DNA of 64,000 nucleotides from positions 27,682,898 through 27,746,897 of the forward strand of contig NC_092577.1 in the NCBI RefSeq assembly GCF_037975245.1, read 5' to 3'. Positions 1,864 through 54,433 of the stretch are shown in pieces (position 1 is the stretch's first letter; each line of letters begins with the position of its first letter). A model generated the notes under the pieces. The model made no database searches and had not been told where the DNA came from. It worked only from the letters and a program-made list of their open reading frames with translations. A program made the translations under genes and the position numbers. The DNA comes from Apostichopus japonicus (taxonomy: Eukaryota > Echinodermata > Holothuroidea > Aspidochirotida > Stichopodidae).

Positions 1864-4800
1864 TGTTCTGGATAAAATTGAAGACAGACAGACATTCCTG
1901 ATTTACTGTTTGGTGATCCGTTCTGTGGAAGCCTGTGGTTCGGCAGCTAGTATGACTGCAAGCATGACTATTACTGCAAATACATTTCCCAACAATGTAG
2001 CTCAGATGATGGTAAGTATTTTGTTTTGCCTTTACATTGATATCATTGAAACCTAATGAACATTTAATCATGACAATTTGAATTTATGGCTGCAGTAGTA
2101 GACTGGCCCTTCAGATCTGTAATGTGTTACTAGTTGTTCATGGTTTCTATACTTTTATTATTATATATTATTATTTATATTTTATATTTATTATTTTTAT
2201 TTTTATTTATATTTATTATTTATATTATTTATATATTATATATTATTTATACATTATATATATTATTATTATATATGATTATATATATTATTTATATATT
2301 ATTATATTTTATTTAAATATTATATATTATTATATATTAATATATACTATATATTATATAAGGGTAGGGTCAGTCATGTCTCCACATCTTTCTATGATTC
2401 TTTAAACTTTACTTTCAATTCACAGGGTATTCTGGAGTCTTTTAGTGGACTTGGCCTGATGATTGGACCGCCAATTGGTAGTTTATTTTACAGTGTGAGT
2501 AGACTGAAGTATTTAGTTCTCTTCTAACATTGGGTCTGTATTGCTTCTGTCTCTCATTCAGTTTGACCTACTCATCCTAATATATGTACCTGTTACAGCA
2601 GGTATACGCAAGTGGTGTCCTTGAAGATATTTCTATCACCAATAGGTGACATCCTGAGGTTAATGGAGATGAATAAAATGTACATTTTGGCAAACATATA
2701 TTTTAGTTATTTGGAATTGAATGGAGCAAAGATCAACATTATAATGCAATTGTGCTCTAAAATATAGTCTTTGAAATATATGGTTTGGTGGATAGCTACA
2801 GTAATGGTTTTTCGACATCTTCTAATCAGTTCAAATTTATGTTACATTGAATCTTTATACTTGTATCGTACCATTGATGTTTGGAACATTGTATTATTTT
2901 CTTATGGAATTTGGGAAAACTTGATCAAACCTAGTACTTTTGGACAAGGAATTTGCTTTTTTTGCAAAATTCCTAAGCGCTCATGTGACTGCAGGTCACC
3001 CTGTGACGTCATTGTGTGGATTCGGTTGAGGAAAACTTTCGATCAAGCTGTTCACTTCAGCACTAACACTACGATGATCATACAACACTCTGTCATACTG
3101 TTAATATCATATGCCAACGAATTGTGTATTAGGAGGTTGCAAAAACACTTCTGAAAACCAAAATTTCAGTCCTTGCATGGTGTTTAGATTGTAAAGCTGT
3201 TAGTGGTTCCACATATTTGTTGATGTCATTCAATGTATGAGAGTGTGTAATATACATGTGCTTGAATTGATTACCATCCTCCTCTTTCAGATCGGAGGTT
3301 ACTCTTTGCCATTCTATGTCCTTGGAGGAATGTCCGCAGCAACCATTGTTATCAATATCTTCTTGTTGCCTTCAGTCGGTAAGAATTTGACAGATATTCT
3401 TGTGGCAGACAATCTAATACTTATATTCTGAGCTGGTGTTTAAAGGCATTGAAGACTCGCCCCAAATCGCATGCTGCCCTGTGAAAAAGTTAACTTTCCG
3501 TTGCTTGCAAAAGTTTTCTTTTTGTCGCTACAAAATGCAGACAGTAATGAAACGTGATACCTTGTTAATACCTTTTATCTGGACCTGAGATCAGGGAGTT
3601 CCATAACAACTCCCTGCTGAGATGTCCATCGCCGCTATGTACAAAATGTTATGGGTATTGACAGTAGCTGCATGTAGTGACTGTACACTAGTGTCTAATT
3701 AACGACGGTAGCAAGCTGTGTGTGTATTTTCTGGGATCGATGGTGGTGTCTAACACTTCTGTTACACCTCAGTCGAAACTAGGTCAAATTACCGGCATGA
3801 GACGTTTCTTTGTGCACGAGTCTTCACACCCTTTAATGAAAACCTGATCCCAATATCTTGTCCCTAACAGGAGATATGGTTGACTGAATTATGTAACCCT
3901 CCATTCTTCTTGGGATAATATCATTGTGGGCCGTCTGTGATATCATCACAACTGCAGAGGTTCTTCCAAAGTTTTACCCAGGTTCCTATTATAATTTTTC
4001 TTGTTGTTTCAGTGATCTCTGTGCCTAGAACTTTTTTGGGAGAAATAATATTTTCTTCTGAAAATTAGAGAGTTCAGAATTATAGAGAAAGATAAAACCA
4101 ATTTTTCAGGTCAATATGCAGTGACAACATTATTCACTCTGCTTTTGCCAAATAAATAACTAAATATCACAAATATTGAAACTTCATATCTTCCCCTTAC
4201 AAAATGCTATGAGGATGTGGGTTTGATCTGAACATGCCAAAAAATGTTCTTGCTGTTGGTCAAGCAATCAACTATAGTCGCAGAAATATCCAATTATGAT
4301 GCACTCTTCAAAGAGATAACACCAAGGTACTTATTTGTTTGATAAGTTCTTTCTTTCATATTATTTGCTTCCCATTTTTATGTGATACAGTTGCTTGATT
4401 ATAGTCAGCCATGTTATAAATAGAACACAGACTTTCAAGGGGCAGCAGGGGCACAAACACCTTTTTCGGTAATGGGGGGAGGGGGTGGGGGGTGATGGCA
4501 ATTAATCCAGGGGAGGGGTGTCCCCTCCCCTGTGAGAAGCTTTGAGAGCCAACTATCATGTGTTATAGATAAATTTTAGAAGAGAACTTTCATCTGTTCT
4601 GCAAAATTTTACCAGTACCATTTCCTACACCTCCCCTAACAACTATTAGCAGTGAATGCAGCAGTGAAGTGTTTGCTAATCTGTTTGAGTTGGCAGTCAC
4701 TGAACATCAGTGGCGTAGCTAGGATTTTTTGAGTGGGGGGGCCATGGGGGGGCTGTTCTTTCTTGTGGGGGGGCCGGAGGTTACTATCTAAGCGGAGCAC

Positions 4801-7800
4801 CACCTTGGTTGGCGCGGAGCGTACAGAGAAAATTTGAGATTTCAGCACCCCCCAGATCGCAGGAGATGGCACCTGTGAGGCAAAATAGCAACCAAAAAGA
4901 TGTGCAACTTTGGTGACAGAAATGCCCAAAAAAAAATTTCTCTTTCATGCTGACTGGCCTTGCCAACTCAGCCAGACTTTTAACTTGAGGGAAATTGGCA
5001 TCATTTGTCGTTTCAAGGTGTCAAGGCCTTTCTCCTAACTCAAACCCCTGTGGGCTACCGGTAGGTTTGTAGGATATGCCCACATGTGGACTTAAATAGC
5101 ATTAGAGGAAGGGGATGGAAGACTAACACGCATCGATGTTTCGGTAATGGTCCAAATTGGTGGCTCGGTGCTAATTAGGCCATTTATTGGGTTTTTTGAG
5201 GCAGCTGTCATCAGAATCTGGGTTTTTGTGCCAATCGATGACCGATAACATGTATTGGTATGTAAATTTCTTCTTCATATATCTAGCAACACTCTAAAAA
5301 CAAATGAGTGGATTTCATTCCATTGGGGTGATCACTCGGCGCACTTCAAATTAAGAGTGAAATTTAACTCTATTGGAGTTATCCCTCACTCCTAATATGA
5401 GTGAATATAACTCTATTAGGAGTCAAGATTTACTCCAATGGAGTGGAAATTCACTCTTATACCGGAATGTGCTCAGTGATCACTCCCATGGAGTGAAATT
5501 CACCTATGTTTTTATCAGTACAGTACAGTGCATATCATCATAGACGTACTACGTACGTTCGTATATCAGACGCACTCAATACCCACGATACGATATGGTC
5601 CTGGAGAAATAATTTCCACTCATCATTTTTTAAGGCGATACAGTAGTGAGTAGTGAACAGGCATAGCCGCATGTTTGCAGGAATTTCAGAATTACCAATA
5701 TTTTATATCTCTACCAGTAGTGGAAAAACATGTTTCGACAGTTTCGTGGGCATAAAGTAAGTAGTTTTGTGGAATATTCAATGACATATCAGAGGCGGAT
5801 GCAGGGTTTGTGACAGGGGGGATCTGACTGGTCCAGCCGCGCCTGAACGTAAGACTATCTAAGCGGAGCGCCATCATCGGTTGGCGCGGAGCGTACAAGA
5901 AATTTTTTGGCTTTACAAACCCCCAGATGGCCGGAAACGGCACTTCCCGAGTATTCTAAGCTGCATGTACCTAGCCTGAAAATATGGATCTCATGTCTGC
6001 AATTTCTCAATTGATGAGAAAAAAACAATCTATGAAATATGGTATTACATATCAGATGAGTTGAGATGATACAAAAATCATAATGCCTTTAGCCCCCAAT
6101 CCCCTCCCGTTCCGTCACCACTGTTTGATGCAGGGCCGGATCCAGGATTTTGGAAGGGTGAGGGGTTTGCTCATGAAAAATTCGTTAGCGCATCCTAGCA
6201 GCCTACCGCTCTGTAACCTCACCGCCCAAAAAAATTTGAACACCACATCAATTTTGAAACTTTTCTGTCTGAAAATTGAGATTGTAAGACATTTTTGGCA
6301 CGTGTAGCACGCGTGCACACTATAGTTCATTTGACGGAAAAGACACACCTGGCTGACTTGTGAGGATAACCGCTTTTCTGACGTCCTACATGTTTAAAAT
6401 TGGCGTTTAATTTAATTATTTTTTTCTCTCTCTTTTTTTTCTCTTTTTTTTGGCCAAGAGCAGGGGGGGGGGTCCGGACCCCCTGGACCCCCTGGATCCG
6501 CACCTGCATATATTTATTTGACTCGAGGCAATATATGAATACCTGATACCTCGGCTCAGTACAAACGGTGCCAATCTTTTGATAGATTGTTGCGCTAGGT
6601 GGAAGCACTGAACATATTCAGCAGATATCGATATCGCGCAGCACAACAAGGTTCGTGGTGTATGGTCGCAATCGTCGCATCGACCATTGCCATGCCATGC
6701 TGTGTGACCATTCTCATGATTACTACAGATATTGTATTATTCTTATTCTACCAGATGCAGACGAGAAAATTGTGTAACTCTATTTCCCAAATTATTGAAC
6801 AACAAATATTAGTGAATCGCACTTATTTTTTTTTTTACAACATTTTTTTTTACCCCATTCCCAGTGGGGGGGCCAGTGGGGGGGCCAGCCGATTTCATGG
6901 GGGGGCCTCGGCCCCCCCTGGCCCCCCCGTAGCTACGCCACTGCTGAACATGACTAGATTTACTGGTGCTGACAGAGTATATTGGATTTAACGTAAATAG
7001 AGTTTGCATCTAATGAACAATGTGAGACTCATTCATCATTATTGAAGTGAGTTCATGATCTTGTAAACAATATGAAAATTGTAGCAGTTTGTGACTAGGA
7101 CATTAGGCAATATATACAGTCTTAAAGAGTCTGATGAATTTTAGACAAACACAAATTAGGGATATTTGCTGATTAGATCGTCAGCGGTAATGACAGTCTT
7201 AGTAAAGACGGACATGTTACAGACCTGTCAACCTGTTTGACCCCAAAATAGGGAGAATAACATTTTTCAGGGCCAAAAAATAGGGAGAACAAGGGGAAAA
7301 TAGGGAGGTTAGCAATTTTCGACTGAAATGATATAAATACTCCTAAATAAGTTTAGTCTACTTATGCAATACAGTGAGAGAATCATCCAATCAGTGTTTC
7401 TTGTTGTAGTTTACAGCAGCTCGCTTCACTTTCTCCAGGGTTTCTTTAGTACGCTTCCATTTGAAACAGGGAACAGTGGACTCTGGGTACTGTGACTTCA
7501 TGGCTAGTATGCTAGATAGAGTCCCATCAAGCTTGAGACTTGACCAACTGTCTGTCTTGTTCTTGCGAACTACACTGAATAGCCGTTCCTGTTCAGTGTA
7601 ACTGTGGGAAATGACTAATAATTACTAAGCATAGGACTAACTGTTGGCTATTTTCAGAAATGTCGCAAGTGATGAAACAGTGAAAAACCGGGAGATTAGA
7701 ATATGAAACCGGGAGATTCCGTTAAAAACTGGGAGAGTTGACGGGTCTGATGTTTCCACCCAATATTCGTTTGTTCTTTTAGGTGCTAATATGACACAGA

Positions 7801-20390: not shown

Positions 20391-22642
20391 GTGTGTAGCA
20401 GTGGCGTAGCTAGGATTTTTTGAGTGGGGGGGCCATGGGGGGGCTGTTCTTTCTTGTGGGGGGGCCGGAGGTTACTATCTAAGCGGAGCACCACCTTGGT
20501 TGGCGCGGAGCGTACAGAGAAAATTTGAGATTTCAGCACCCCCCAGATCGCAGGAGATGGCACCTGTGAGGCAAAATAGCAACCAAAAAGATGTGCAACT
20601 TTGGTGACAGAAATGCCCAAAAAAAAATTTCTCTTTCATGCTGACTGGCCTTGCCAACTCAGCCAGACTTTTAACTTGAGGGAAATTGGCATCATTTGTC
20701 GTTTCAAGGTGTCAAGGCCTTTCTCCTAACTCAAACCCCTGTGGGCTACCGGTAGGTTTGTAGGATATGCCCACATGTGGACTTAAATAGCATTAGAGGA
20801 AGGGGATGGAAGACTAACACGCATCGATGTTTCGGTAATGGTCCAAATTGGTGGCTCGGTGCTAATTAGGCCATTTATTGGGTTTTTTGAGGCAGCTGTC
20901 ATCAGAATCTGGGTTTTTGTGCCAATCGATGACCGATAACATGTATTGGTATGTAAATTTCTTCTTCATATATCTAGCAACACTCTAAAAACAAATGAGT
21001 GGATTTCATTCCATTGGGGTGATCACTCGGCGCACTTCAAATTAAGAGTGAAATTTAACTCTATTGGAGTTATCCCTCACTCCTAATATGAGTGAATATA
21101 ACTCTATTAGGAGTCAAGATTTACTCCAATGGAGTGGAAATTCACTCTTATACCGGAATGTGCTCAGTGATCACTCCCATGGAGTGAAATTCACCTATGT
21201 TTTTATCAGTACAGTACAGTGCATATCATCATAGACGTACTACGTACGTTCGTATATCAGACGCACTCAATACCCACGATACGATATGGTCCTGGAGAAA
21301 TAATTTCCACTCATCATTTTTTAAGGCGATACAGTAGTGAGTAGTGAACAGGCATAGCCGCATGTTTGCAGGAATTTCAGAATTACCAATATTTTATATC
21401 TCTACCAGTAGTGGAAAAACATGTTTCGACAGTTTCGTGGGCATAAAGTAAGTAGTTTTGTGGAATATTCAATGACATATCAGAGGCGGATGCAGGGTTT
21501 GTGACAGGGGGGATCTGACTGGTCCAGCCGCGCCTGAACGTAAGACTATCTAAGCGGAGCGCCATCATCGGTTGGCGCGGAGCGTACAAGAAATTTTTTG
21601 GCTTTACAAACCCCCAGATGGCCGGAAACGGCACTTCCCGAGTATTCTAAGCTGCATGTACCTAGCCTGAAAATATGGATCTCATGTCTGCAATTTCTCA
21701 ATTGATGAGAAAAAAACAATCTATGAAATATGGTATTACATATCAGATGAGTTGAGATGATACAAAAATCATAATGCCTTTAGCCCCCAATCCCCTCCCG
21801 TTCCGTCACCACTGTTTGATGCAGGGCCGGATCCAGGATTTTGGAAGGGTGAGGGGTTTGCTCATGAAAAATTCGTTAGCGCATCCTAGCAGCCTACCGC
21901 TCTGTAACCTCACCGCCCAAAAAAATTTGAACACCACATCAATTTTGAAACTTTTCTGTCTGAAAATTGAGATTGTAAGACATTTTTGGCACGTGTAGCA
22001 CGCGTGCACACTATAGTTCATTTGACGGAAAAGACACACCTGGCTGACTTGTGAGGATAACCGCTTTTCTGACGTCCTACATGTTTAAAATTGGCGTTTA
22101 ATTTAATTATTTTTTTCTCTCTCTTTTTTTTCTCTTTTTTTTGGCCAAGAGCAGGGGGGGGGGTCCGGACCCCCTGGACCCCCTGGATCCGCACCTGCAT
22201 ATATTTATTTGACTCGAGGCAATATATGAATACCTGATACCTCGGCTCAGTACAAACGGTGCCAATCTTTTGATAGATTGTTGCGCTAGGTGGAAGCACT
22301 GAACATATTCAGCAGATATCGATATCGCGCAGCACAACAAGGTTCGTGGTGTATGGTCGCAATCGTCGCATCGACCATTGCCATGCCATGCTGTGTGACC
22401 ATTCTCATGATTACTACAGATATTGTATTATTCTTATTCTACCAGATGCAGACGAGAAAATTGTGTAACTCTATTTCCCAAATTATTGAACAACAAATAT
22501 TAGTGAATCGCACTTATTTTTTTTTTTACAACATTTTTTTTTACCCCATTCCCAGTGGGGGGGCCAGTGGGGGGGCCAGCCGATTTCATGGGGGGGCCTC
22601 GGCCCCCCCTGGCCCCCCCGTAGCTACGCCACTGGTGTGTAG
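20391..22642. mobile_element. 2236-bp non-autonomous hAT-type element, copy 2
   Basis: The element spans 20399-22634, with the same inverted ends (CAGTGGCGTAGCTA) as copy 1. The 8-bp target duplication GTGTGTAG is at 20391-20398 and 22635-22642. Same length as copy 1 and, by eye and by all shared translated frames, identical in sequence. It is inserted in the spacer between the SLC18B1 copies, within the left flank of another element (22647-23113). Confidence 0.92.
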
Positions 22643-28786: not shown

Positions 28787-31700
28787 ATGGCAGAGGATCA
28801 GCAAAACGTTAATGAAGTTGATGTATCAGCCTCTCCACCTCTAACGAAAAGACAAAAGATAATCTTCTGTGGGATTGCTGCCTCCTATGTATTCAATTTG
28901 ATGTCCTTTTCAATCATTGCTCCATTCTTTCCTGCAGAGGTTTGTCAACATTATTCTCTAACGATTTGATATATTTTCATAGAAATATTTTTATGATTAG
29001 GAGATTCATATAGATCAAATCAAGGCTGAAACTGCAACAGATCAGAGGTTTTTTGTTGTTTTACTTTTAGTCTCTGGCAATATCTACCTGTCTTGTCACT
29101 ACTATTGCACTACTATTGTCTTCTGCCTGCCTGACTTAGTAGGTCTGCTGCAATAGGTCTACAGAAGACTGCCATTGAGTGTCACCTACTAACATGTAAT
29201 GAATGGGAAGATGGGAATTTGTCAAGAAAGTGGTGATTTAAGAGATTGGAGCTTCACCTTAATAATGTTAAGATATATAAAACTGTCAAGTGTGCAGCAT
29301 CAAGTTTAATTATCAATCTCAAGCTATCAGCTCTGCAATATTAAAGGCATTGAAGACTCGCCCCAAACCGTGTGCGGCCATCTGAAAAAGATAACTTTCC
29401 GTTGCTTGCAAGTGACGTTTTGTTCGTGTCGCTACAAAATGCAGACAGTACAGTAATGAAACGTGATACCTTAATTGTTATCTTCAGCTGGACCTGAGAT
29501 GTCCATCGCTGTATGGTTTGTATACTGTGCTGTGGGTATTGACCGCAGCTGTATGTACTGACTGTACACTAGTGTCTAATTACCGACGGTAGCAAGTTGT
29601 GTGTGTATTTTCTGGGATCGATGGTGGTGTCTAACACTTCTGTTACACCTCATTCGAAACTAGGTCAGATTACCGGCATTAGACGTTTCTTTTTGCGCGA
29701 GTCTTCACACCCTTTAATAACGTTAAGATATATATAATGCTGTCAAGTGTGCATCAATTTTAATTCCCAATCTCAAGCTACCATAGCTGCGATATTAAAG
29801 AACAAAGACTATTTGATGACAGTAATGTTGAAAATTGAAATCTCGAGTGATGTTCTTCAGCTGGATCACTATGACATCTATATCCTTACTTTATCTTTTA
29901 AATTGTGTAGAATCCTTCATGTGAATACAAGAGCTGTGCGGGTACATATAAGGTGGGGTAAAAGTCCATTTAATGCAACGAGGGGCAGCTTCCTTACCCA
30001 GAAAAGTTTGCTTCCAGAGGAGGTTGTATCAAGGATTATCTAGCCTTTACATGTGCAGGAGAGTGTGGCAACATTATTGAGATATTGAAATGCATTTTTA
30101 TTGTTTGTTATCTTTCAGGCAGCTAAGAAAGGTCTGTCACCCACTCAAGTTGGCTTTATCTTTGCTTTATTCAACTTGGTTAATTTTTTGGCCTCACCAT
30201 TGTTTGGAAAATTTGTAAGTTAATTAAGCATTGAATTTACAGGAAAATAATTGAAACCTTTCCACTCTTTTCTTTAATACAAACCTCACCAGGTAGTAGT
30301 GAGTGCTAGTCAAAACATTTTGTTTTTATTAGTCATTTTTAGCTTCCTCAAAATAACTGAACATACTCTTCATACAGACCAGTGTATGACCACATGACAT
30401 CAAACTCTTAACAACTTTTTACAGAAAGTGGGTTCTTGTTAATTGAAACCTTTCAATCATGATAAGGACTTATTCCAACCATTACAATAGCATTGCTCCT
30501 TATCATACACAACATGAAAGTGTGAATCATAGCACTTGTATAAACTCGTGGTTCCCATCCAGTGGCTCCAAGTTTCACCAAAAATAACTCCTTGTCGCTT
30601 CAATCCTCATATAGTTATTATTCTCTGATGTACAACTCGTGCTAGATATATCAGAATATTAAATATACTAACATAAACTTATAACGTAATACAGTCATAA
30701 TGTGATTAATGTCTTTATTCTCTGAGCTGCTAGCAGTGCTTAACAAGTACAACAAGAGACTCCAGTCTCTCCTCAACTAAAGTAGCTGGAGGCCCATGCA
30801 TTATTAATATTGTGTAGCTGACGCAAAGTGCTTGTGTTATTTTCCTGTGTCCTTGAAAGGTTACTAGGCCCTGAACTCATTTATGATTCTTTAGTGGCAT
30901 GCATATATGCTGGATTATTTATGTACATGTTGTATAAATGTCAATTTATTTCTGTTTATTCCAGCTACCAGTATTAGGAGCAAAGTTTGTCTTTCTTTCT
31001 GGTGCATGGGTTGCTGCTGGTTGTAATGTACTCTTTGGGTGAGTAGTAAATGTTGATGAGGATTAATATGTTGATGAGAATCATTTTTGATAATTATTAA
31101 ATTGATGAATATTAACGTTGATGAGCATAAATTGTAAATCTGTATTGTGATTGCTTGGGAATATATACAGTAACTTACTGCTAAGATAAATGCAGTTAAT
31201 GTTGAGAACCACATAGTAGAACTTGTTGATACTTGTTGATAGTTGTTGATACTCAACATGTATGTTCCTGCTTTATTATCTACACATAAAGTCATCAATT
31301 CCTTTCCATCTCTTGTATTCTACAGAGTGTTAGATGAGATTGAGGACACACAGACTTTCATGATATTCTGTTTTGTTGTCCGGGCTGTTGAGGCCTGTGG
31401 GTCAGCAGCCTCTATTACTGCCAGCATGACAATAACAGCTAATGCATTTCCAGATAATATGGCACAAATGATGGTGAGTGAGCCCATACATACTAGTGCT
31501 GATTGTCGTAATCCATTAATTAAAAGTAGTCGCGATTACGCTTTGGAAGTTTGATTAATTGCGCTCAAACCTAAGTTGCGATTACTCAACTACAAGTTAG
31601 CACTACACATAATCAAAATAATCTGTTTTTGAAAAATTGGCAAACCTCTCAAAAACAACACTTAAGCAGTTTGACAGCAAATATCATGAAAAATCGGCAT

Positions 31701-34700
31701 GCAAGAACTTGCTACGGTTTATTCATGCGTTTGCTTGTCAGTAATACGCTAGTTCTGCAGAGCAACATTGAGTCCTAGCAATTTTTGATCGTGAGTTTTA
31801 TGATTGCGAAAGTATTTGTCATTTCTTCAAACATGTTTACAATTACTTCATTCCTGGCCTGGTTCACATTTATCGAATGTCTGATTGAGTGTGTTTATTG
31901 CGGTGTAGTTTACTAATTTCAATGTGCAAAACATGTGCCTGCTATCGTTCTAGGCTAGAGCCTAGCCTAGAACTTTGAACGTCCTTCAACAGAAAAATCT
32001 TGCATACTAATCATCACACCACTGCAAAGTGTTACATCTACAGTATTCATTTGTTGCACGTTTGTTTTTATTAGTGCTAGTAGTTGTAGTAGCCTCATAG
32101 ATTCATTAGAAAGTTTCTGATTTACTATGAAGGATTTTAGGAAATGTTGTATATTGATAGTTGTTCACATTTTTTGTTTGGTAGATGATTTAGACACCAC
32201 ACGTTGAGACCCAAAAGAACAGATAAATACAGTGCACCATGGAGAAAGATTTGTTTTGACTGTAGTTCTGCAATGTAAAATGACAGTGTTGACGTCATAA
32301 CTGTAATCGAGTAATTGCAGTAATCGCCAGAAGAGCTATGCGATTAATCGACTACAAAAGAGTCGACTATCAGCACTATTGCATACATACAGACACCTAT
32401 ACATACACCCATACATGCTTGCATACAAACACACATACATACTCGCATACAAACACGCATACATTTAAAGGCTGAATACCCGAAACTCATTATCAACCCC
32501 TGCGGCATCATCCGCTAACCGTACCATTTACCTAAAGGGACTTAAAGGCATTGAAGACTCGCCCCCAACGGCGTGCCACGCTCTGAAAAAGTTAACTTTC
32601 CGTTGCTTCCAAGTGAAGTTTTCTGCTTGTTGCTACTAAATGCAGACAGTAATGAAACATGAGACCTGAGATGTCCATCGCTGTATCGTTTATACACTGT
32701 GATGTGGGTATTGACCCCAGCTGTATGTACTGACTGTACACTAGTGTCTAATTACCGACGGTAGCAAGCTGTGTGTGTATTTTCTGGGATCGATGGTGGT
32801 GTCTAACACTTCTGTTACACCACATTCAAAACTAGGTCAGATTACCGGCATGAGACGTTTCTTTGTGCGCGAGTCTTCACACCCTTTAAAGTGCCATCCC
32901 ATGTTCCCACAACAGGCCGGAGTAGTGTGGCTAATAAATCAGCTTTGCTTAAAGATGACAATGTTTACATACATTTCCAAGTTACATGGCACAAATAATG
33001 ATCATATATATCGTATTAGTTTTAATGTGTCCTTTCTTTGGAATAATTCTATGGAATAACTCTTCATCTCCACAGGGTATCCTGGAGTCTTTTAGTGGGA
33101 TCGCTTTCATGGTTGGTCCTCCATTAGGTGGTTTATTTTATAGTGTAAGTACATCCCTCAAACTTTTATATCATTATTTCTCCAATTTTCATTGAATATT
33201 TAACTTAGGACCCCATTTTCATATCAAATCAATACAATTTAAATTTTGTTCTAGGTCATTATGCAATAAATTTGTGTGGAAGACATTGAAATATCCATGT
33301 GTAATACTTGTATTAGCACTTAACTGTACCCAAATTTAAAAAAAGAGAAGTTTGTTCAGCGATAACAGCAATTGATGAATCAAAGTTATTACCTGTATAT
33401 GTTAATTTTAGAACAATATTGTTATGAATGGAAAATTTTAAAACAACTTCATTCAGTTTGTAAATTGCTCATTCAGACTTGGTTAAATGACATAATTTGA
33501 CAACCTCAATACCAAGACAGCTTCTACATAAATTGTGTTCAATTAAACAGTGTAATCAATTATATTTCATATGCAAATAAGTTGTGAACCTTTGTGGGAA
33601 ATTTCAACTTTGTAAGAGCTGTAAATAATCGCTGAGACAAGTTAATTCAGGATATTGTTAAGTTGTGGTGGTCAGTTTGTGACTATTTTGCATGTTTGAG
33701 AAGAACTCTTGTCTTTAAAAATTTTTCCTTAGTATATATATTTATATTAATATTCAAGCTGTGTCCATTTTATTTTTCGTATTCATATTTTAAGGGGTTT
33801 TGTCATTTTGTTACTTAAAATTACTTAAAACTCACTTTTTCAAGTTAGGAATTTCACTGTAAATCTATATTGTTTTTAAAATTATTACTTCGTATATATA
33901 TATTTTTTTAATATAAACATTTAAGCTGCATCAATTTTATTTAACATATTCATATTTGAAGGGTTTTGTCATTTTGTTGTCATTGTAAAGCGCTCTTGAA
34001 CATGCTTAAGCATGAAAAGAGCGCTTTATAAATCTGGTAAATATTAATAATAATAAGTCTCTGAAATTTGTGAAATACTGTTCAACTGGGAAGAAACTGA
34101 GTTTAATATGCTTTTATAGTGATTATGTCTTGTCCGTCATCTGGTTCATAGTTTCTCTTCCAATCAGTATTAGTTTATAGTTTGTGACCACATGTTACTG
34201 AAAGTTATAACAGCTCAAGACCTTGTGTTAAAGCGCACAGATTATGGTTCCCTGAATTCAGTATCGTCTGTTTCCTCTTCAGATTGGAGGGTACAAATTG
34301 CCATTCTTTGCCTTAGGAGGAATTTCTGTGGCCACCATAATCTTCAACATCATTCTATTGCCATCAGTTGGTAAGTAAAACATGACTTTTGTCATATCCA
34401 AGTTCATGATTATTCATATGTTGTCCGGTAAACAATTCCCATCGTGCATCATTCTGTGTAGCACATGACTTGGAGTTGATTGAAGAGTGAAAAATATAGA
34501 GAACGTAATTTGTAACACACGTACTGTACTCTTGCTGCAGTCTTTACTTACATACATGTACATCCTACCGTCTAACAGTGTATTGTGAGAACTGCTATTT
34601 CGGGAGTCTAACCAAGCTGTGCGCCTAATACTACAAATAAACCATCCGATATAACAACTTTGTTGATCCATGAATGTCATTTCTAGCAATTTCAAACCAG

Positions 34701-44536: not shown

Positions 44537-44899
44537 TTAAAGGCATTGAATACTCACCCCAAACCACGTGCGGCCATCTGAAAAAGTTAACTTTCCGTTG
44601 CTTTCAAGTGAGTTTTTCTTGTCGCTACAAAATGCAGACAGTAATGAAACGTGATCCCTTGTTATCTTTGATCTACACCTGAGATGTCCATCGTTGCTAT
44701 GTACACTGTGCTGTGGGTATTGACCCTAGCTGCATGTAGTGACTGTACACTAGTGTCTAAGTACCGACGTTAGCAAGCTGTGTGTGTATTTTCTGGGATT
44801 GATGGTGGTGTCTTACACTTCTGTTACACCTCATTCGAAACTTGGTCAGATTACCAGCTTCAGACGTTTCTTTGTGCGCGAGTCTTCAATGCCTTTTAA
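44537..44899. mobile_element. TTAA-flanked MITE (Kolobok/T2-like), copy 4
   Basis: TTAA at 44537-44540 and 44896-44899. This copy preserves the best inverted ends: AGGCATTGAA at the left and TTCAATGCCTT at the right. It is 500 bp downstream of the copy B stop codon. Confidence 0.85.
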
Positions 44900-50100: not shown

Positions 50101-53083
50101 TAATTGTAAAAAAAGTGGACAATACGAGTATAGGGCTGTCTTGATCTGGCCGCATGTGTAGACTATTTTGTTTACATTTGTGAAATGAACATGCTGACAT
50201 AGGCGGTCGCGGTGATTTTACGGTAAATCGTTCGCACCATAAGGGCAACAGCAAATAAATTTCTTTCTTTCGATTGCGACAGCTTTTCTCCAACCCACCT
50301 GGTCAGAGTGCATTTAGAATAAGAAACACCGAATCTACTTTGGAAGTTTGTTTACCGAAATTCATCAGTAAACGGGTATTGAGACTTTAAAAGAACAACT
50401 CATATTTCAAAGATGTCCTCACCTGTGTTTGAACACCATCAGAGCCATCAAGGAGCTCTGCATGGATGTTGAGGACTCTAAGTTTGATGTATTCTACGTA
50501 AATGAGGGCAGCAGATGGAGACTGGAACATCCGGGCAATGTCACAGGCAACTAAATCAAAATAGAAGTTACATAATGGACTGACATTAACAACATATTTC
50601 ATTGTGTTGGTGTAATGTTCTGCTCAAATCAATCAGTCATTTTTTTTTCTGTCATCTTAGGCGATATAGCTCTTACACAAACTGACGACTTCAGAATTTA
50701 AGTATTCTTATTAACTTGATAGGATGTTGCCTCACCTGTGAGGTCAAGGGTCAATAGATGAAAGAAGCTGCGAGGTCTATAAACCACAACTTCCAGTCCT
50801 GTAGGTGGATAATCGTTGATGTGTCCAGGACGGGTGGTTTGTGATGCATGGACAGCAGCAAGCATGGTTTGAAACACGCGAGCAAGGTCACATGCAGCTA
50901 TTGGAAAGACAAGAGAGAATTGATTGCCAAATGGGCACGTTAAGATGTCAGTGGAATTAAAGAATATATAATAATGATATAAAGTCATCTTGGGGTTTTA
51001 TTTGTCTCACTAGAACAGCACATAGACGAGGCAGAGTTTATCTATTAAAATTTATCATATTGTAAATCGAAGTATATTTTAAATTCGAGGAATAACTGAT
51101 GATTTGTGAAAATATCAGCGACAATCAACGATGTTTGAATTACTATCCAACTTTCGCCCAATCTCTTCCGTACCCCAAACTCCATCCCCTTTCAACCCCC
51201 CCCCCACCTCCACCCCCTCCTCCACGTTGTACTATCCCATGGGCAACATTCAAACATAATAGGACAACTCACCGGTAACATCAATCCGAAGGTTCAGTAA
51301 ACTGGCCGGTGGTCGATAAAGAACAAGTTCCTTTCCGGTCTTCTGTTTATCGCTACAACAAAATCAAAACATACCTGATTAATAAATGCACGGTTTAGGT
51401 AAAGAAGTTCGATATAGCAGAACAGTATGTAAATTGTTATGAAGGAAGCAAATGCCAATTGAAAGTACTCACGTGGTCAAGGTCATTCCAAGGTCAGTGG
51501 TTGATTGAGAAATATCAAAGAGGCAGATGAGGACATTCCTTACGGTAGTCTGGTCCTGTCCAAGAGGAAAACAAAATAGTTGAAGATGAAACAGACAAAT
51601 CCATTCTATCACTTGTAACTGCAAGTTACTTACAAATTTACCGACCTGACGAGAGAGTGATCAAGGAGTACTGCTTCGGGGGCTAGGGTTAATTAGGGGC
51701 ACTGGAAAATTATGGAAGATACCCGGGAAAATAATGGATAAAGAATGGTCACTGTATGCTCATTTCGGAAGATATCTTAATTAGGGGTCCGGTGTCGTGA
51801 GAGCTGTCGCCAGCGGCTATTAGACCTGGCTCTCTGCACCTTCGGATTATATAGGGCTCAAACTACAATGGAGGAAGTTTCTTCTTATACAGCCCATAAT
51901 AACAACATTTTCTTTACTCTTTTTTTTTTGGATAACATTTACATATGACAATACCCATTACCAGGGTGTCTATCCGGCTTATAAAATATATGTGACATTA
52001 TACCAGGGTGTCTATCCCGGCCTATATAGTATATGTGTAACATTACCAGGGTGTCTATCCCGGCCTATATAATATATGTGTGACATTACCAGGGTGTCTA
52101 TCCCGGCCTATATAATATATGTGTGACATTACCAGGAGGTCTATCCGGCTTATAAAATATATGTGACATTACCAAGGTGTCTATCCCGGCCTATATAATA
52201 TATGTGTGACATAACCAGAGTGTCTATCCCGGCCTATATAATATATGTGTGACATTACCATGGTGTCTATCCGGCCTATATTATATATGTGTGACATTAC
52301 CAGGGTGTCTATCCCGGCCTATATAATATATGTGTGACATTACCAGAGTGTCTATCCCGGCCTATATAATATATGTGTGACATTACCAGGGTGTCTATCC
52401 GGCCTATATAATATATGTGTGACATTACCAGGGTGTCTATCCGGCCTATATAATATATGTGTGACATTACCATGGTCTTATGAAGATCCTGAGATGTTGT
52501 TCTTGTCTGCATCTTGTTGATCTTCTCCAGATAACGAAGGATTTTTCTTATTTGCTGATCACGAATCCTCTCTACAAGTTTTGAATAACAAAGTTATGGA
52601 AGAGTTTATGTGAACAGGTTCTGTTTTATAGAACATAACTTACTGTGGATGGGATGGAGAAGGGGGGGGGGTGGAATAGATGAAAGCCAGGTTGTCACCA
52701 AATGCTTGTACAATATTTATTAACAGAAATCACAGAAATAGAAGCCATGCTCTTATAACCAAATCATCTACAATGGATATGAAATATTTTTCAAATGTTA
52801 CTTTACGGACGAATCAATTTGGTCATTAACGGAGATCTCGTATACATGTTATATAGCGATCTCTTCTTTAAATGGTTGTTTTAAGCTCTATAGCATTCAG
52901 GCGACAGAGACTGTTCCTCGAGTTAAAATGCTTGACTGAAATGTTCCGATTGATTCAGTGTACCATTTTAAACGATACAGATTCTGAACAACTTGGAATA
53001 TATACAACATATACAATATATACAATATGTACAATGTATACAATATCTTATTAGTTATGTTGTAATCCATTGATGTGAAGAAG

Positions 53084-54254: not shown

Positions 54255-54433
54255 CAAAGAGGCAGATGAGGACATTCCTTACGGTAGTCTGGTCCTGTCC
54301 AAGAGGAAAAGATGAAACAGACCCATCCATTTTATCACTTAACTGTAACCAGGGAGTTTTTTCCATAACAACTCCCTACTGTAACTGCAAGTTACAAATT
54401 TACCGACCTGACGAGAGAGTGTTCAAAGAGTAC
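54255..54433 (-). pseudogene. Partial duplicate of an LsmAD-gene exon and its flank
   Basis: This matches 51516-51671, which is the start of exon 51555-51473 plus its upstream intron. The duplicate keeps the splice acceptor CCTCTTGGACAG and the codons for DQTTVRNVLICLF, then diverges and loses the rest. It lies upstream of the first coding exon, so it is probably a non-functional segmental copy. A 31-bp hairpin has been inserted into it at 54350-54380. Confidence 0.7.
54345..54385. mobile_element. Micro-hairpin insertion with 5-bp target duplication, copy 2
   Basis: A 31-bp segment (54350-54380) with CAGGGAGTT, a short T run, then CCATAACAACTCCCTACT, flanked by GTAAC at 54345-54349 and 54381-54385. 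The paralogous sequence at 51615-51619 has a single GTAAC and no insert. Same arms and core as the copy at 3587-3623. Confidence 0.75.

Follow-up and report, generated by a model that had tools for sequence, protein, structure and literature searches.

Two short hairpins, each lying between two copies of a 7-bp sequence, are present in the window, the whole stretch of 64,000 nucleotides of Apostichopus japonicus DNA analysed here. One of them sits inside a MITE with three sister copies in the window, and the other has a paralogous segment without a hairpin. The features, all on the forward strand, are as follows.

3440..3836, +, host MITE (TTAAAGG...CCTTTAA) carrying hairpin 1, aligned with three sisters
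3585..3591, +, left 7-bp target duplication of hairpin 1, CTGAGAT
3592..3616, +, hairpin 1, 25 bp, CAGGGAGTTCCATAACAACTCCCTG, putative excision footprint with at most 9 nt from one end and 16-18 nt from the other
3617..3623, +, right 7-bp target duplication of hairpin 1, CTGAGAT
29341..29717, +, sister MITE, empty site, single CTGAGAT at 29494
32542..32889, +, sister MITE, empty site, single CTGAGAT at 32666
44537..44899, +, sister MITE, empty site, single CTGAGAT at 44679
51611..51625, +, paralogous segment without hairpin (ACTTGTAACTGCAAG), one GTAAC at 51615-51619
54343..54349, +, left 7-bp target duplication of hairpin 2, CTGTAAC
54350..54378, +, hairpin 2, 29 bp, CAGGGAGTTTTTTCCATAACAACTCCCTA, putative excision footprint
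54379..54385, +, right 7-bp target duplication of hairpin 2, CTGTAAC

The original prediction had recognized a tiny hairpin at these two sites. Both copies are real, and their lengths and ends had to be corrected to those given above. Exact matches to CAGGGAGTT-N0..12-CCATAACAACTCCCT occur in the window only at 3592 and 54350, and none of 100 window shuffles contained any. In hairpin 2, the right arm spans 18 nt with its final base mutated, the left arm is shorter, and additional T's are present. The flanking direct repeats had been read as 5 bp (GAGAT and GTAAC). Their true length is 7 bp, the 5-mers being the last five bases of CTGAGAT and CTGTAAC, and the GCT or ACT previously included in the hairpin consists of its terminal G (A in the second copy) followed by the first two bases of the duplication.

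The three sister MITEs had been proposed as empty sites, which was borne out by the presence of CTGAGAT once in each. The same had been proposed for the paralogous segment at 51.6 kb, which indeed has a single GTAAC and no insert, but it also shows an additional 4-bp AACT indel exactly at the insertion site and is therefore an empty site only up to this indel difference. Elsewhere in the window, two 300-base stretches (4708-5007 and 20399-20698), 15,691 bases apart, are 100% identical, and the ORFs at 6416-6736 and 22107-22427 have an identical translation and the same spacing (15,691). A longer segmental duplication is therefore likely.

Hairpin copies and target duplications across the genome

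The genome was searched for hairpin patterns over 671,581,487 bases in 35 contigs. The pattern proposed originally gave 661+621 matches and its reversed control gave 0, and the palindrome CAGGGAGTT-N0..30-AACTCCCTG, which is identical on both strands and permits lengths up to 48 bp, was found at 1981 places, with 1 for the reversed-pattern control. Hundreds of copies with duplications had been named as what would support mobility, and these 1981 exact palindromic copies, in many different flanks, reach that level. Hairpin lengths ranged from 21 to 34 bp among the matches listed (50 distinct places), with a few of 35 bp among the matches listed for the pattern that skips closed hairpins, described below. 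The hairpin pattern had 0 matches in viral contigs, a result that is uninformative.

Flanks were compared at loci with an exact 15-nt arm. The 51 distinct two-armed loci formed 41 groups by flank similarity, a loose grouping in which unrelated loci may be merged. A 7-bp duplication was perfect in 23 of the 41 groups and had at most one mismatch in 29; when right flanks were shuffled (2000 shuffles), the number of groups with at most one mismatch averaged 1.4 and reached a maximum of 7. An 8-bp duplication in the same register was perfect in only 1 of the 41. The duplications expected at the flanks are present, in a register of 7 and not 5 bp, and a 5-bp duplication was rejected, as all seven bases match in these 23 groups. 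Among the perfect duplications, T occupies position 2 in 22 of the 23 and A occupies position 6 in 19. Two or more mismatches were found in 12 groups, which were counted against the reading of the hairpins as excision scars that is developed below. Ten additional loci outside the 41 groups, some of which have host repeats in common, comprised two with a perfect duplication, three with one mismatch and five with more, the last again counting against scars.

Many of the 25-bp copies sit in two host repeats. The MITE subfamily that carries hairpin 1 accounts for nine tabulated hairpin copies with identical MITE flanks (the window copy and eight elsewhere), and a second host repeat, with TGGCAGTTGTAC / GTTGTACCAACG flanks, accounts for seven. 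A scar landing within another repeat, as copy 1 would have done in its MITE, would have been multiplied along with that host. Confinement of the copies to one larger shared repeat, which the original prediction had considered to weigh against mobility, is seen for copy 1 and some others but does not hold for the family. Among the first 20 C2 copies listed for the originally proposed pattern, 7 were inside the two host repeats; from this 20-copy sample and a total of 1282 or 1981 copies, independent scars outside the two hosts may be estimated, very roughly, at about 800 to 1300.

The parent element and the limit of the hairpin arms

A search pattern designed to pass over closed hairpins had 155 matches, and a 35-base end recurs among the 100 of these that were listed. 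With up to three mismatches allowed, this recurrent end and the opposite end were found at 20 places in the genome. The terminal inverted repeat of the parent is 33 bp long (CAGGGAGTTGTTATGGAATGGAGTTCTGTCTTC) and begins with the hairpin arm. It is identical at both ends in the C3 and C17 elements and has one mismatch in those of C2 and C12. The complete elements found were the following.

C3:19626415-19638456, 12,042 bp, perfect 7-bp duplication, encloses a P-transposase match
C17:23626432-23639549, 13,118 bp, perfect 7-bp duplication, encloses a P-transposase match
C2:29714454-29719013, 4,560 bp, perfect 7-bp duplication
C12:11435185-11439664, 4,480 bp, perfect 7-bp duplication
C14:11059946-11060028, 83 bp, perfect 7-bp duplication, one end sharing only 18 bp of the repeat

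The duplications of these five elements are GTCTGAC, CTGAAAC, GTTTAAC, GGTAATG and GTATGAC. Five is a lower bound, since the search covered ends with up to three mismatches in 35 bases. No partner end was found for the other copies of the parent end, and no second end was seen in the 1.5-3 kb read on the element side of fifteen partnerless 16-mer sites. Parent ends were not found beside six P-like transposases, with the ends of one of them (L069) falling beyond the fetched stretch. The pair at C17:20864855 / 20911623 (46.8 kb) has unlike 7-mers at its two flanks and was therefore not accepted as an element.

The P-transposase RNase H domain (PF21787) has 45 matches in the genome, and two of the five complete elements (C3 and C17) enclose one. 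In the parent, a frame of 628 residues matches PF21787 (E 1.8e-29) and PF12017 (25.2 bits, cut-off 23), and a second frame of 190 residues matches PF21789. A comparison of the parent transposase with PDB returned a single hit, the Drosophila P transposase 6p5a (E 1.4e-9). The GTP-binding domain PF21788, present in three other P-like ORFs of the genome, was not found in the two parent ORFs scanned, which come from an element only partly read, its middle excluded, and this result was likewise counted against scars. With a transposase combining an RNase H fold and an HTH domain, terminal inverted repeats and 7-bp duplications, the parent is, judged from its sequence, a predicted member of the P superfamily.

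The long P element of C3 contains a 28-bp mutated hairpin (L069:319-346), which is found at the same place in the 99% identical C17 copy (L072), as if another element had jumped in and out again. Three P-like ORFs have a segment resembling PF12560 (RAG1 importin binding) ahead of the P RNase H domain. This N-terminal match reaches 40.1 and 42.2 bits in L070:824-2752 (+) and L071:2357-4381 (-), above the cut-off of 23.3, and 18.3 bits, below the same cut-off, in L069:876-2759 (+). Its occurrence in P-like ORFs may be relevant to N-RAG-TP and to the origin of the RAG1 N-terminal region, as treated in the available text of PMC8355894. The P-like transposase regions C16:17490300-17494500 and C16:17666480-17670680 (L074, L075) are 99.5% identical over the fetched stretches, and a C19 pair (L067, L073) is 100% identical over its own. 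Both pairs are segmental duplications or recent copies.

The hairpin arms end well inside the parental repeat. Its first 16 nt occur at 1977 sites and its first 20 nt at only 26, of which at least 17 are ends listed for the parent family. We followed the parental base in 80 distinct sequences without the recurrent end, drawn from the 100 of 155 matches listed, selected for non-C at nt 22, 24 and 25 and in some cases mutually related; its retained fraction fell from 0.89 at nt 17 and 0.79 at nt 18 to 0.25 at nt 19 and 0.10 at nt 20. The longer arm measures exactly 18 nt in 30 of the 41 flank groups, and 16 (4 groups), 17 (3) or 19 nt (4) in the others. As the hairpin retains no more than 16-18 nt of the 33-bp parental repeat, it is probably not itself the unit that moves; of the mobility first proposed, the many copies with target duplications stand. 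The Drosophila P transposase makes a 17-nt stagger by cutting 17 nt inside the end (PMC7776569). From the limit of the arms, we infer that the parent transposase would likewise make a long staggered cut, about 18 nt inside its ends; the tail would exceed that of Drosophila by one nt, a difference counted against the scar reading.

Junctions, proposed excision scars and rival readings

We consider it very probable (about 93%) that each hairpin is the excision scar of a P-superfamily cut-and-paste transposon. The transposase would cut one strand at the element border and the other strand about 18 nt inside, and because of this proposed staggered cut each chromosome end would keep a 3' tail, CAGGGAGTTGTTATGGAA. 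Alternative end joining of the polymerase-theta type would pair an intact tail with a microhomology of 1-2 nt in the other tail, one arm remaining near 18 nt and the other being trimmed. The product between the two duplications would be a hairpin of 21-35 bp (the sizes seen) mimicking a minute MITE, left at the site by a long element that had moved away. The original observation is sound once the duplication length is corrected, and the interpretation of the hairpin as mobile should be replaced by that of excision scars of a mobile P-superfamily element.

When one 18-nt tail is kept whole, a 2-nt microhomology (two ambiguous bases) is obtained only in products of 25 and 28 bp. Among 100 listed matches of the originally proposed pattern, in which one place was counted twice, these two sizes accounted for 59, the three 1-nt products for 14, the six 0-nt products for 3 and other products for 24. 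The 25-bp class is inflated by the host repeats; across the 41 flank groups, 28 bp is the most frequent size, with 14 groups against 9 for 25 bp. Junction sizes alone are not decisive, because these two lengths could also be favoured if a longer palindrome underwent slippage.

Seven one-armed loci were sampled, of which six keep the 18 bases TTCCATAACAACTCCCTG, and the remaining one, L037, partly repeats the scar next to it. At L050, two 7-mers with one mismatch directly adjoin the 18 nt on either side, and at L040, with one arm only, part of one duplication is gone. Mobility is not expected of an element that has lost one end, and these loci fit trimmed breaks, not movers. Read as junctions, the hairpins bear apparent marks of end joining, namely microhomology, trimming and small insertions. 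At L037 / L038, a 28-bp scar precedes a further, incomplete copy of its right arm and duplication (GTCAAA-CCATAACAACTCCCTG-GTCAAAC), an arrangement that looks like a templated insertion made while joining. At L007 / L008, scars of 25 and 27 bp have just one 7-bp duplication between them, GTCTAAC / GTTAGAC.

About two thousand copies with target duplications, and the empty sites of the sister repeats, could also be produced if the hairpin were itself a mobile micro-MITE, about 25-36 bp long and mobilised in trans by the P-type transposase, its shorter forms having descended from a 34-36 bp palindrome through loss of the centre. GTT-repeat slippage in a 34-bp palindrome would likewise yield 25 and 28 bp, as far as the sequence can be reasoned through. 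We nevertheless find this reading very improbable. The hairpin includes no more than about 18 of the parent's 33 terminal bases and does not have the full parental repeat on both sides. One-armed loci, L040 and L050 among them, would be immobile, and their origin would require deletions halting repeatedly at one base. Ends 25 bp apart would be hard to pair within one complex.

Deletion derivatives of the long element do exist, as shown by the 83-bp element of C14 and the 4.5-kb elements, and the hairpins might have arisen in the same way through aborted gap repair. This process would be expected to give variable lengths, often with more than 20 nt of the end, whereas nt 20 is reached by 26 of 1977 sites, and an origin of this kind appears extremely improbable. 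The CAGGG start is like many hAT ends, and copy 2 alone is readable with an 8-bp repeat, ACTGTAAC. A hAT transposon making 8-bp duplications is nonetheless a scarcely credible source of the hairpins, as the register of the ends gives perfect duplications in 23 of 41 flank groups at 7 bp versus 1 of 41 at 8 bp, and the parent encodes a P transposase.

If the hairpins are excision scars, there are hundreds of them for every complete element found, with about a thousand independent scars (a very rough figure) versus five, an imbalance that was counted against the scar reading. Such an excess could result from prolonged activity in which each jump leaves a scar, from drift having removed elements, or from exceptionally strong excision. 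More speculatively, the P element of this lineage may be lost from the germ line much more easily than it is kept, possibly by mass excision that recurs or is even programmed, with about a thousand departures recorded versus a handful of resident copies and closure nearly always of the polymerase-theta type; we regard this as a tentative and rather unlikely extension.

Relation to known excision systems

No comparable set appeared among the papers listed by literature searches on very short MITEs, P-type or genome-wide footprints and echinoderm P elements. P-type excision scars are already known from fly experiments, and here one reference genome seems to be a natural, countable archive of them. 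If this is true, sequence alone could reveal where an uncharacterised transposase cuts (about 18 nt) and which spectrum of end joining occurs naturally in the germ line of an echinoderm, and transposon departures could be counted separately from surviving copies. The case also cautions that families of very short repeats flanked by target duplications may consist of scars instead of mobile elements, which would mislead repeat annotation.

Like MITEs, the hairpins are short, palindromic and present in many copies with target duplications. Unlike MITEs, they are missing 15 of the parent's 33 terminal bases, and a whole end is absent from some. Natural excision events of DNA transposons, showing deletions and filler DNA, have also been catalogued for a pair of rice genomes (PMC4423477). 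Those 94 putative events were recovered through a two-species comparison, whereas the scars proposed here are recognisable within one genome by their common motif.

Within the P type, the zebrafish Pdre/THAP9 transposase likewise excises its own element, but that element has 13-bp terminal repeats and 8-bp duplications (PMC10983969). Galileo, a P-superfamily element of Drosophila, has 7-bp duplications with the consensus GTAGTAC, near the GTnnnAC-like preference observed here (PMC2775673). Comparable scars are unmentioned in the available text of that paper, and Galileo is likened here by its duplications only.

Sequenced P excision junctions from Rad51-deficient flies have the same architecture as the hairpins (PMC2895639, Table 1), and polymerase theta is credited with much of the joining after P excision in flies (PMC2895639). 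As in the hairpins, both duplications are kept in many of the fly products, and each end contributes at most the length of its tail. Short microhomologies, blunt joins, small insertions and some deletions into the duplication are likewise found in both (PMC2895639). The fly footprints, with 17-nt tails and an 8-bp duplication, were obtained experimentally (PMC2895639), whereas the putative ones described here, with tails of about 18 nt and a 7-bp duplication, are natural and genome-wide.
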